Shown here piece after piece: positions 8,732-11,756 of a stretch of DNA of 31,469 nucleotides. The notes below the pieces were generated by a model that was given only the letters and a program-made list of their open reading frames with translations, was not told where the DNA came from and searched no databases. The stretch is taken from positions 1 to 31,469 of IMG/VR virus record IMGVR_UViG_3300006119_000035; one strand, 5' to 3'. Made by a program: the position numbers and the translations under genes. Positions within the stretch are counted from its first letter, which is position 1. Each line of letters starts with the position of its first letter. Source of the DNA: a virus.

Positions 8732-9106
8732 TTAAAGTTTATATTTTTGAATAATGAATTCTAATTCTGCCCGGGACCATTTTTTTACCTCCCTATGATT
8801 CTGTTCTAGCCATTCGACTTTTTTTTCGCCTATCTTATTAATCAGGTTTTTGCGGTATCCCACCAAATGGAATTGATTAAACCCGTTACAGCCTTTACAT
8901 TCCCCGTGTACGTTATCCTCGTTAAATCTTAGCGCCGAACTGTTTTTAACCGGGACGTAGTGGCCGGCGTCCATTTGGCTAACGTCTTTAACCATCCCGC
9001 AACTAATACAGCGGAACCGACTTCCGTCTAAGTCGCGTTGCCTTATCCAAGTATTAAAAATCCTTTGTGCTTTTGCTAAAAGCTTAGGAAGCGTTATTAA
9101 ATTCAT
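8732..9106 (-). CDS. ninG: NinG/Rap-like recombination protein
   Basis: A 124-residue protein with the NinG pattern in order: AQRIFNTWIRQRD, a first zinc pair CISCG, DAGHYVPV, SALRFNEDNVH, a second pair CKGCN, and YRKNLINKIG. In phage lambda, NinG (Rap) promotes recombination, probably as a Holliday-junction nuclease, and this family is metal-dependent with an HNH-like core. The length is short compared with lambda NinG (about 200), as is common outside enterobacteria. Its start overlaps the upstream gene by 23 bases. It belongs to the replication/recombination part of the early region. Confidence 0.87.
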   Translation of the reverse strand: MNLITLPKLLAKAQRIFNTWIRQRDLDGSRFRCISCGMVKDVSQMDAGHYVPVKNSSALRFNEDNVHGECKGCNGFNQFHLVGYRKNLINKIGEKKVEWLEQNHREVKKWSRAELEFIIQKYKL

Positions 9107-9803: not shown

Positions 9804-10427
9804 TTATTTTTTAGATTTTAGTAAATAATCAATCCTAGCGGCTTCATGCTTGCTTCTGTCTTCCTTGGTAAATGTTTCACTTACTCTTTCTTCGTGGTAG
9901 CTTGGGCGATGGCTTGAGGCTTGCTCGTCCCTAATATTTCGGATTGCCTGCCATCTTTCCTCTCTGTATTGCTCGAACATATCCATAAACTTTGGAATAT
10001 CTAAGCTTTCGTAAAGCTTCCCATATTGACCGCGGACCAACTGTTGTAAAAAAAGCATGACATCCTCTATGCTCAATTGGTCCTCTTCTGACGTTTCGAT
10101 TATTGCGTCTACTAAATCCATTATTTGGGTTGCGTTCATGGGGCGAATTAAATTCATAGACTCCATCGCGTTAGTAACAGCAACTAAAACAACCGCAAAT
10201 GTCCTTTTAAGGTCAATTTTAGCCATGGCCGGCAATCTGCTTTCTCTATTGATAGAAAATATAGCGGGAAAATTTATTTGCCCTTGTGGGGTCTTATATT
10301 CTCTTAAAGCTATATTCATTTCTATTTTATTATTGGTTTCTAAAGCGACCATTATATTGCTGTTGAATATCGCTTTTGAGGTCTGAACCTGATTTTGCGT
10401 TTGTTGAATTTCGTTTGATGATTTCAT
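9804..10427 (-). CDS. DUF6633-like, replication-associated protein
   Basis: I choose ATG at 10427-10425 (207 residues); an upstream TTG is unlikely, and a later ATG at 10352 would reduce the unusually long 98-base overlap with the preceding gene. The C-terminal half (VMLFLQQLVRGQYGKLYESL, then MFEQYREERWQAIRNIRDEQ) matches what I remember of DUF6633 proteins in Bacteroidetes mobile elements, which pair with replication proteins. The C-terminus is very charged and rich in E, R and K. A DnaA- or primase-loading partner role is only a guess from its position after the DUF1376-like gene. Confidence 0.65.
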   Translation of the reverse strand: MKSSNEIQQTQNQVQTSKAIFNSNIMVALETNNKIEMNIALREYKTPQGQINFPAIFSINRESRLPAMAKIDLKRTFAVVLVAVTNAMESMNLIRPMNATQIMDLVDAIIETSEEDQLSIEDVMLFLQQLVRGQYGKLYESLDIPKFMDMFEQYREERWQAIRNIRDEQASSHRPSYHEERVSETFTKEDRSKHEAARIDYLLKSKK

Positions 10428-11004
10428 CGTTAAATGATTTGTTGTGTAAATATGTTGCGGGGTCCTTTCTGAAATTTTTATCAGGTGTTGAAGCCACATA
10501 GTCTTTGACAACTATTAAAGCCAATTCCTTTTCTTTGTCGTTTAACTTATCCCATTTGGCCTTTGCTTTTTCCTTGCTTCTTTTTTTATCGTAGCAATCC
10601 CACCAATAATTAAAATTTTCGTCGACAATTTCAGCTTTAGTTCTAGTTATAGTTTCAGTTACTATTTCAGTTTCAGTTTCCATATGCTTTGCATATGCTT
10701 CGCTAGTGTTATTGTTTTTAGAAGATTTTGCATTGTTTCTTCGGCTTTCGCTGAACTTTTGCCTTCTCTCCGTTTCCTTAAACATTCTTTCATTAAAAAA
10801 CATTCCGTTTTCGTTCGCGAATTTCGACCATATGTCAACATCATATGCTTTGCATATGCTTAACATATCCTTTTCGGAAAGTTTGCCTTTTTGGTGCTGT
10901 AAACACAATAAACGCATATACATACCAACTTGTTCATTTGTCATTGTAAACGTGCCGCTTAAAAAATCGGACGTATAAAATAATACCGCGGGGTCTTTAG
11001 CCAT
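10330..11004 (-). CDS. DUF1376-like replication protein
   Basis: A 224-residue protein. The first ~75 residues (DPAVLFYTSDFLSGTFTMTN, then GMYMRLLCLQHQKGKLSEKD) match the DUF1376 / phage replisome-organiser N-terminal winged-helix domain. The middle is low complexity (ETETEIVTETITRTKAEIVD), and the C-terminal part (WWDCYDKKRSKEKAKAKWDK...DPATYLHNKSF) resembles the DnaD-like or helicase-loader tail of such proteins. These proteins open an origin and recruit the host helicase. The gene contains two identical 20-bp repeats, an arrangement like the origin inside lambda O. It overlaps the HNH gene by 8 bases. Confidence 0.78.
   Translation of the reverse strand: MAKDPAVLFYTSDFLSGTFTMTNEQVGMYMRLLCLQHQKGKLSEKDMLSICKAYDVDIWSKFANENGMFFNERMFKETERRQKFSESRRNNAKSSKNNNTSEAYAKHMETETEIVTETITRTKAEIVDENFNYWWDCYDKKRSKEKAKAKWDKLNDKEKELALIVVKDYVASTPDKNFRKDPATYLHNKSFNDEIIKRNSTNAKSGSDLKSDIQQQYNGRFRNQ
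10681..10700 (-). repeat. 20-bp repeat copy 1 (GCATATG iterons)
   Basis: On the minus strand the sequence is AAGCATATGCAAAGCATATG: two GCATATG boxes spaced by 11 bp, about one helical turn. It lies inside the DUF1376-like gene, where it is read as Ala-Tyr-Ala-Lys-His-Met. An identical copy lies at 10842-10861 in another frame. Candidate initiator binding site. Confidence 0.65.
10842..10861 (-). repeat. 20-bp repeat copy 2 (GCATATG iterons)
   Basis: Identical over 20 bases to 10681-10700, but here the frame reads Ser-Ile-Cys-Lys-Ala-Tyr. A further CATATG lies just to the left (near 10829), so five CATATG boxes fall within about 180 bp. Conservation in different frames indicates that the DNA, not the protein, is under selection. 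Confidence 0.65.
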
Positions 11005-11338
11005 TTTCTACCTCCTTTTTTTCTCTTTCATAAATCATTCCGTGATAAATTAAAGTTATAAGCCCGTCGCTAGTTTCTCCCGCTATGTAACATTTTTCAA
11101 TTAATTCTTGTAAAACTTTTTTATTATATTCTTCTTCCTCATGGCATTCGTGACAAAGCGTTTTTAAATAAATATTGTCATATTCCCAAGGCTCTAAACC
11201 TTTTTTATAAATTACATGGTGTACATGCAAAGTTTTATTATCACATTGACAATTTTTACATGTAAAATTATCGCGTTCCATAACTTCTAAACGCTTTCTT
11301 TGCCATCTTGGGTCTTTAAGTTTTTCTCCGTAAGTCAT
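10997..11338 (-). CDS. HNH endonuclease
   Basis: A 113-residue protein from ATG 11338 (MTYGEKLKDPRWQRKRLEVM, a usual opening for phage HNH proteins); a TTG at 11392 and an ATG at 11356 are alternatives. It has a first zinc pair C27-x2-C30, the catalytic H40-H41 motif in LHVHH, N55, and C62-x2-C65-H66. HNH enzymes next to early genes may nick DNA for recombination or packaging, or act as homing nucleases. The leader upstream holds two hairpins with complementary loops, so the start choice matters: with ATG 11338 both hairpins lie in untranslated RNA. Confidence 0.88.
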   Translation of the reverse strand: MTYGEKLKDPRWQRKRLEVMERDNFTCKNCQCDNKTLHVHHVIYKKGLEPWEYDNIYLKTLCHECHEEEEYNKKVLQELIEKCYIAGETSDGLITLIYHGMIYEREKKEVENG

Positions 11339-11363
11339 AAAATAAAAATGCCCCATCGGCTCC

Positions 11364-11382
11364 CCAACTGTCGGATAGTTGG
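11364..11382. other. Hairpin 1 of candidate kissing-loop pair
   Basis: Perfect 6-bp stem CCAACT/AGTTGG closes a 7-base loop GTCGGAT (11370-11376). The loop is the exact reverse complement of the loop of the hairpin at 11409-11427. Located just upstream of the chosen HNH start on the minus-strand transcript. Confidence 0.7.
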
Positions 11383-11408
11383 TTCGCGTCAAGGGCTAAA
11401 GTCTTTAA

Positions 11409-11427
11409 TTGAGTATCCGACACTCAA
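11409..11427. other. Hairpin 2 of candidate kissing-loop pair
   Basis: Perfect 6-bp stem TTGAGT/ACTCAA closes a 7-base loop ATCCGAC (11415-11421), complementary over all seven bases to the loop of 11364-11382. The outer flanking bases also extend the complement to 9 bp (TGTCGGATA with TATCCGACA). It lies in the gap between the 103-residue gene and the HNH gene. Confidence 0.7.
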
Positions 11428-11432
11428 GGTTG

Positions 11433-11440
11433 CAAATATA
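11433..11440 (-). promoter_or_regulatory. Weak Bacteroidetes -7-like element
   Basis: On the minus strand this reads TATATTTG, matching the TAnnTTTG -7 consensus of Bacteroidetes, upstream of the hairpin pair and HNH gene. No TTTG or TTG box is found at the expected distance upstream, so it is only a half match. Confidence 0.3.
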
Positions 11441-11444
11441 TAAA

Positions 11445-11756
11445 TTAAATATAAACTTCGTCAGCCTTACTAACTCTTTTTCTAAAAAATCCTTCATACT
11501 GTGGATATTCTTTCATGAATAAACGACTGTAAAAAGGCTTTGCGTTATTGTTTATTTTAAAATCATCCCCGGCTTTTATCGGGGTTTCCCATCTAATAAC
11601 ATTAAAAATAAACTCCGCGGATAAGTTTTTAAATCCTCTTTCTATTGAACGAAGCGTATATCTTCGGAAAAATTCCCAAATTTCAGGGTTTGCCTTATGG
11701 TATTCCATAAACCACTTAAATTGCGGGGTTTCTTGTTCGTCAAATAAATTTTTCAT
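11445..11756 (-). CDS. Hypothetical phage protein (103 aa)
   Basis: A 103-residue protein with PQFKWFMEYHKANPEIWEFF and RYTLRSIERGFKNLSAEFIF, aromatic and basic, then FYSRLFMKEYPQYEGFFRKR. This is a recurring small family in phage early regions whose function I do not know; the many aromatic and basic residues suggest nucleic-acid contact. Its ATG overlaps the TGA of the upstream micro-protein (ATGA). Confidence 0.7.
   Translation of the reverse strand: MKNLFDEQETPQFKWFMEYHKANPEIWEFFRRYTLRSIERGFKNLSAEFIFNVIRWETPIKAGDDFKINNNAKPFYSRLFMKEYPQYEGFFRKRVSKADEVYI

Follow-up and report, generated by a model that had tools for sequence, protein, structure and literature searches.

The window, the whole stretch of 31,469 nucleotides analysed here (IMG/VR virus record IMGVR_UViG_3300006119_000035), carries two hairpins upstream of an HNH endonuclease gene. 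The first-pass annotation wrote them as CCAACT-GTCGGAT-AGTTGG (11364-11382) and TTGAGT-ATCCGAC-ACTCAA (11409-11427). Both lie at exactly these positions, each spanning 19 bp with a perfect 6-bp stem, and the 7-nt loops, read directly from the window sequence, are reverse complements as had been claimed. All genes neighbouring the site are on the minus strand, and the relevant RNA is therefore the reverse complement of the strand written in that annotation, which also missed an outer stem (11392-11396/11350-11354) and a U-tract (11339-11349). Read 5' to 3' on the minus strand, the order is TATATTTG, P1, TTAAAGACTTTA, GCCCT, P3, GGGGC, ATTTTTATTTT and the ATG of the HNH gene (11338). The features of the locus are listed below with the evidence for each.

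11433..11440, minus strand: putative promoter -7 motif TATATTTG (TAnnTTTG, Bacteroidetes type); motif match, conserved in relatives.
11409..11427, minus strand: 5' hairpin P1, TTGAGT-GTCGGAT-ACTCAA, with loop L1 at 11415-11421; sequence and covariation.
11397..11408, minus strand: P1-P2 linker TTAAAGACTTTA, for which the type A consensus is TTAAnAACTTATT; alignments.
11392..11396, minus strand: outer terminator stem P2, 5' strand GCCCT; RNAfold minimum free energy (MFE) structure and covariation.
11364..11382, minus strand: hairpin P3, CCAACT-ATCCGAC-AGTTGG, nested in the putative terminator, with loop L3 (11370-11376) complementary to L1; sequence, covariation and MFE structure.
11350..11354, minus strand: P2, 3' strand GGGGC; covariation and RNAfold MFE structure.
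11339..11349, minus strand: U-tract ATTTTTATTTT, with the start codon immediately 3'; sequence, and stem-to-ATG spacing in relatives.
10997..11338, minus strand: gene for an HNH endonuclease of 113 aa, MTYGEKLKDPRW..., here an insert separating the leader from the replication gene; PHROGs HNH, best 9e-16.
10330..11004, minus strand: replication-initiation / primosomal protein gene, MAKDPAVLFYTSDF..., with an 8-nt overlap with the HNH stop; PHROGs matches.

The gene at 10330-11004 matched phrog_270 (replication initiation, 1.4e-9) and phrog_9327 (primosomal, 3.3e-9), and this gene, rather than the HNH gene, is likely to be the real target of the leader. A few genes further downstream on the same strand lies a NinG-family gene (8732-9106; Pfam 1.4e-33). 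A tRNA search of the window found none.

The RNAfold MFE structure of the minus strand contains P1, the outer stem P2 (GCCC/GGGC) and P3 with an L3 loop of exactly 7 nt. In this fold P1 gains two more pairs than are shown above, which leaves a 3-nt loop, and the energy model folds the leader without needing the kiss. A generic terminator scan did not report the leader hairpin; its rule (a loop of 3-8 nt, and a stem followed by T at once) does not suit a nested hairpin. A chance origin had been called very unlikely, and simulation agrees: of 1500 windows simulated with matching dinucleotide frequencies, none contained a pair of hairpins with stems of at least 6 bp and complementary 7-nt loops, at most 80 nt apart. 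With 4-bp stems the same simulation gave a mean of 0.013 pairs per window. The decisive evidence for the hairpin pair is conservation, since loops and stems covary across relatives.

More than 200 distinct relatives in viral contigs keep this layout. They form two sequence families, A (that of the window) and B, which have the architecture in common and not the sequence; the same plan was also seen in one case of a third type (L286) and in a B-like variant (L547/L472). Relatives were found by HNH homologues, by the loop pattern, by the linker and by the downstream replication proteins, and all counts are "at least" values. The HNH homologues in viral contigs had the same leader layout with other loop sequences. 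The initial loop-pattern scan was noisy because both loops together form a palindrome, and only stem-bearing matches at a fixed distance were kept. Members with the loop GTCGGAT were partly found by loop, and GTACGAG and GTACCAG came to light when protein-fetched loci were scanned for complementarity. The remaining loop kinds of family A came from protein-fetched loci, and family B was found via the linker only. Covariance models were built for family A (R1, without the kissing pairs) and family B (R2).

Covariation was assessed in both families. Paired cells made up 94.5% of the total in family A (16 sequences), compared with 79.3% in shuffled and 36-51% in slid controls, and double changes were present in 18 of 24 pairs. 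P3 cells were 100% paired and kissing cells 95.5% paired in the A3 alignment. The outer stem P2 covaries as well (GCCC/GGGC, GGCTC/GAGCC, GGCC/GGCC and AGGG/CCCT). Pairing reached 98.5% in family B (19 sequences), where the kissing helix is the most variable part and yet 100% paired, with double changes in 5/7 of its pairs.

When the loops of family A were read from the stems alone, all 58 distinct sequences were complementary at 7/7 positions, in 8 loop pairs. Perfect complementarity was likewise seen in 74 of the 76 distinct sequences of family B (6 loop pairs), the other two pairing at 6/7. These two (L147 and L303) each combine loops of two different types, and they look like natural recombinants or assembly chimeras of known kinds. 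A linker-only sample of family A gave three more loop kinds, ATTGCAG, GTCGTAT and GTCAGAT. Nine sequences of the linker sample read GGAT-GTAGGAT-ATCC with ATCCTAC, and their seeming mismatches are register errors only. The total is at least 17 loop pairs, with nearly every distinct sequence matching at 7/7 bases. In one close comparison (L427 and L431) linker and tail are identical, two bases differ in each loop, and both changes are matched. Most records have one element; two (G010 and G011) have two elements with different loop pairs.

The first-pass annotation had suggested that the loops kiss as RNA and had proposed looking in related phages for loop changes matched in the partner loop. 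Such compensatory changes were found, and they strongly support that reading. Chance and simple shared ancestry do not account for the matching. Judged from the alignments, it is near certain that the loops pair and that the RNA has the secondary structure given above with a 7-bp L1/L3 kissing complex.

The element is bounded by conserved motifs on both sides. TAnnTT[TC]G was found at its 5' side in 183/187 instances, and when 33 unrelated upstream contexts were compared, TATATTTGY alone stood out sharply and a -33 box was absent. The sigma-ABfr -7 consensus has this form, TAnnTTTG; it was described for B. fragilis and has been confirmed for F. johnsoniae, whose promoters likewise yielded no -33 motif (PMC7366714). 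On the 3' side a U-tract follows the stem, and the stem-to-ATG distance is 9-11 nt in 160/187 instances. Going by these motifs and the covariation, the element has a putative promoter, a structured leader and a GC stem with a U-tract, as an attenuator leader would.

The first gene after the element is replication-initiator-like, with several N-terminal types, in about 145 of the 187 instances. Most other first genes are HNH, GIY-YIG, NUMOD4-HNH or methylase-like, and they nearly always overlap or abut the replication gene. The nuclease genes (window 10997-11338, L122-L150, L260 and L256) usually overlap the replication gene start by 1-35 nt; in L256 the NUMOD4-HNH gene follows a second leader. 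The junction of leader and replication gene is a recurrent insertion point for small nucleases. Mosaic junctions were also seen at the leader (L034-L256 and L422-L501), where the same element has differing upstream genes and differing replication genes, and the leader may be a recombination anchor for swapping replication modules.

Rfam 15 gave no match to the window at gathering cut-offs, to 11250-11550 at E<=5 or to nine related loci at E<=0.5. A DNA-similarity search of named phages found no element, and an open-access literature search found no description of it. A covariance-model search of 397 Flavobacteriaceae genomes found none among the 10 candidates scored per genome, a depth too shallow for the negative to be informative. 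The only family A or B instance seen in a cellular genome bin is a type A element in a Lutibacter MAG (L551, Flavobacteriaceae), with loops GTTGCAG/CTGCAAC, before an SNF2-like helicase gene. We regard the leader as a new family of RNAs and as a new form of attenuation by a leader, its regulatory effect being predicted.

Kissing loops in natural gene control mostly join two molecules or lie within ligand-binding riboswitches. In ColE1, RNA I and RNA II form kissing complexes with fully complementary 7-nt loops, but that kissing is between two RNAs, whereas the two loops of the phage leader are on one RNA. The P4 CI and P1 C4 elements are phage leaders in which complementary segments of one transcript cause premature termination before replication or antirepressor genes. 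The likeness to our leader lies in the complementary segments and the predicted termination; the structure is different and there is no Rfam C4 match. A replication initiator is also the gene regulated by the pT181 attenuator. The pT181 repC leader has a 5' hairpin and an intrinsic terminator in its 5' UTR, with loop-loop kissing as a central step (PMC4878617), and the phage leader resembles it in all three respects. As in pT181, a terminator (by motif only) stands just before the start codon of a replication initiator, the gene being assigned by replication-initiation PHROGs. However, control in pT181 works through an opposite-strand antisense RNA and an anti-terminator helix, whereas the phage leader has both loops on one RNA, most of its members pair only as far as the loop edges, and antisense promoters are under-represented. 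Over 66 distinct downstream genes, we counted 5 TAnnTTTG-like sites on the opposite strand of the first 200 nt, against 13 expected; the lack of a conserved antisense promoter argues against antisense control of the pT181 type. The position of the loop edges likewise makes a branch-migrating anti-terminator, in which a long-range helix replaces the kiss, unlikely. The window is an exception in that its loop pairing extends to 9 bp. The lack of any obvious ligand pocket conserved between subtypes speaks against a riboswitch.

On balance we think that the leader is probably a cis-acting attenuator that holds down expression of the phage replication operon, and that the kiss locks its terminator. 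A leader RNA of about 95-100 nt would head the operon. Transcription would begin at the TATATTTG promoter, so that P1 is the first part made. P3 and P2 would then fold into a hairpin resembling an intrinsic terminator, whose U-tract ends just before the start codon, and the 7-nt loop of P1 would pair fully with that of P3 and so anchor the 5' hairpin to the terminator. Most transcripts would stop at the U-tract. In those that read through, the same hairpin would cover the start region and hinder initiation, and the supply of replication initiator would stay low and fixed for as long as the fold holds. We infer attenuation and its direction from sequence. Because kissing leaves the terminator stem intact, we expect the kiss to stabilise or gate the terminator state and not to replace it; the sign of the effect is a guess.

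Matching loops fit pairing in cis and in trans alike, and several alternatives to cis attenuation have to be weighed. The terminated RNA of about 95 nt could itself be the product, a stable phage small RNA with its ends clamped by the kiss and acting elsewhere. In its favour are a promoter motif of its own, P1 at the very start of the RNA, a 3' end like that of a terminator, and a conserved linker. However, the U-tract-to-ATG spacing of 9-11 nt is kept in most cases before many unrelated first genes, which a free-standing RNA would not need, and no fixed sequence is seen in the loops, its most accessible parts; we regard this reading as unlikely. Pairing in trans could instead serve immunity or copy control in the style of P4 CI and P1 C4, a resident leader pairing with an incoming leader of the same loop type and forcing its termination. 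It is favoured by the variety of loop pairs (at least 17) on scaffolds that are otherwise conserved, by close relatives that differ in their loops, and by the two differing elements in each of G010 and G011. Against it, the loops of each RNA can be satisfied in cis, no Rfam C4 match was found, and no integrase or repressor, which would point to a temperate life style, was identified among the window genes tested. We judge it, together with its corollary that loop types are specificity groups, quite unlikely. A search for trans targets in the window found no exact copy of the 9-mer TGTCGGATA beyond the two hairpins; with at most one mismatch there were 8 matches, including both hairpins, against 4.8 expected.

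A put-like element would bind RNA polymerase and make it resist downstream pausing or termination. HK022 put acts to suppress termination and does not serve as a terminator, whereas the phage leader ends in a terminator-like U-tract. No kissing loop is known in HK022 put or between put hairpins, and no bases that could make contacts are conserved in the loops of our leader. A precedent for phage early-region RNA that acts on transcription in cis exists in HK022 putRNA, and RNA hairpins next to a phage promoter are common to both (PMC9378689). A put-like role is very unlikely. Intermolecular kissing into dimers or rings, as in phi29 packaging RNA or GOLLD and ROOL cages, is slightly less credible still. 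Complementary loops on one RNA would allow it, and GOLLD and ROOL, which are phage-encoded like the leader and phi29 pRNA, have covarying intermolecular kissing loops (PMC12286853). However, the linkers (about 26 nt between the hairpins in A, and 19-20 nt to the terminator in B) should permit pairing in cis. The known oligomer-forming RNAs are also much larger or differently placed and have no link to a replication-gene leader, and a gene-leader position is unlike that of a packaging RNA. The suggestion that the hairpins form a DNA double cruciform, or a nicking or recombination target of the HNH enzyme, did not survive comparison with relatives and is extremely unlikely. HNH, GIY-YIG and NUMOD4 genes do adjoin the element, but in a minority of phages; about 145 of the 187 elements are followed directly by the replication gene with no nuclease gene, so that no consistent association with an HNH gene exists. 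In Pan5 and Abp95 a related HNH gene also precedes a replication gene, with no such leader seen upstream. The polarity of the element, which has a conserved promoter motif at one end and an ATG preceded by a terminator-like U-tract at the other, points to RNA.

Similar pairing between the 5' end and the terminator loop was also seen in four more distant leaders. Most of the more distant loci before the same replication gene have no terminator. In a small sample that had been inspected by eye beforehand, the terminator loop is complementary to a 5' segment of the leader in a Chitinophagaceae MAG (L383), a Lutibacter MAG (L387) and a virus (L420), with 0/300 shuffles as good; a fourth locus (L392) has the same complementarity in weaker form (p 0.033). 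The four leaders are unrelated in sequence. The pairing is GTAATCAACGAC/GTCGTTGGTTAC with one mismatch in L387 and CCAAACAGCG/CGCTGTTTGG in L420. A plain terminator with no 5'-segment pairing was found in L390. The shuffle script judges short kisses poorly, as several true members of A and B had p >0.1 or were mis-parsed, and L385 was mis-parsed too. This sample suggests that pairing of the 5' end with the terminator loop could be in general use, the kissing hairpins being its neatest version.

Matched loop changes in fixed scaffolds, together with differing loops in one phage, hint at selection for specificity. The loop pair might be a fast-changing specificity code by which each phage or operon leader recognises only itself, within a general replication-control device of Bacteroidetes phages; we offer this broader idea tentatively and consider it rather unlikely. 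If it were true, the loop code would give loop-specific control or exclusion between co-infecting phages.

A conserved kiss between a 5' hairpin and a terminator loop within one short leader, present in many phages in at least 17 loop pairs, provides a natural set of variants in which to study what a tertiary contact with a terminator loop does to termination. As an RNA family absent from Rfam, it is a possible handle on replication timing in Bacteroidetes phages, and its naturally varied loop pairs may be ready parts for RNA circuits. Two further loci (L548, at 274-369, and L549) have a terminator-like hairpin and U-tract abutting an ATG with the kissing partner absent, and these precede other small phage genes (MKYIKFF... 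and MSNKLYEH...).
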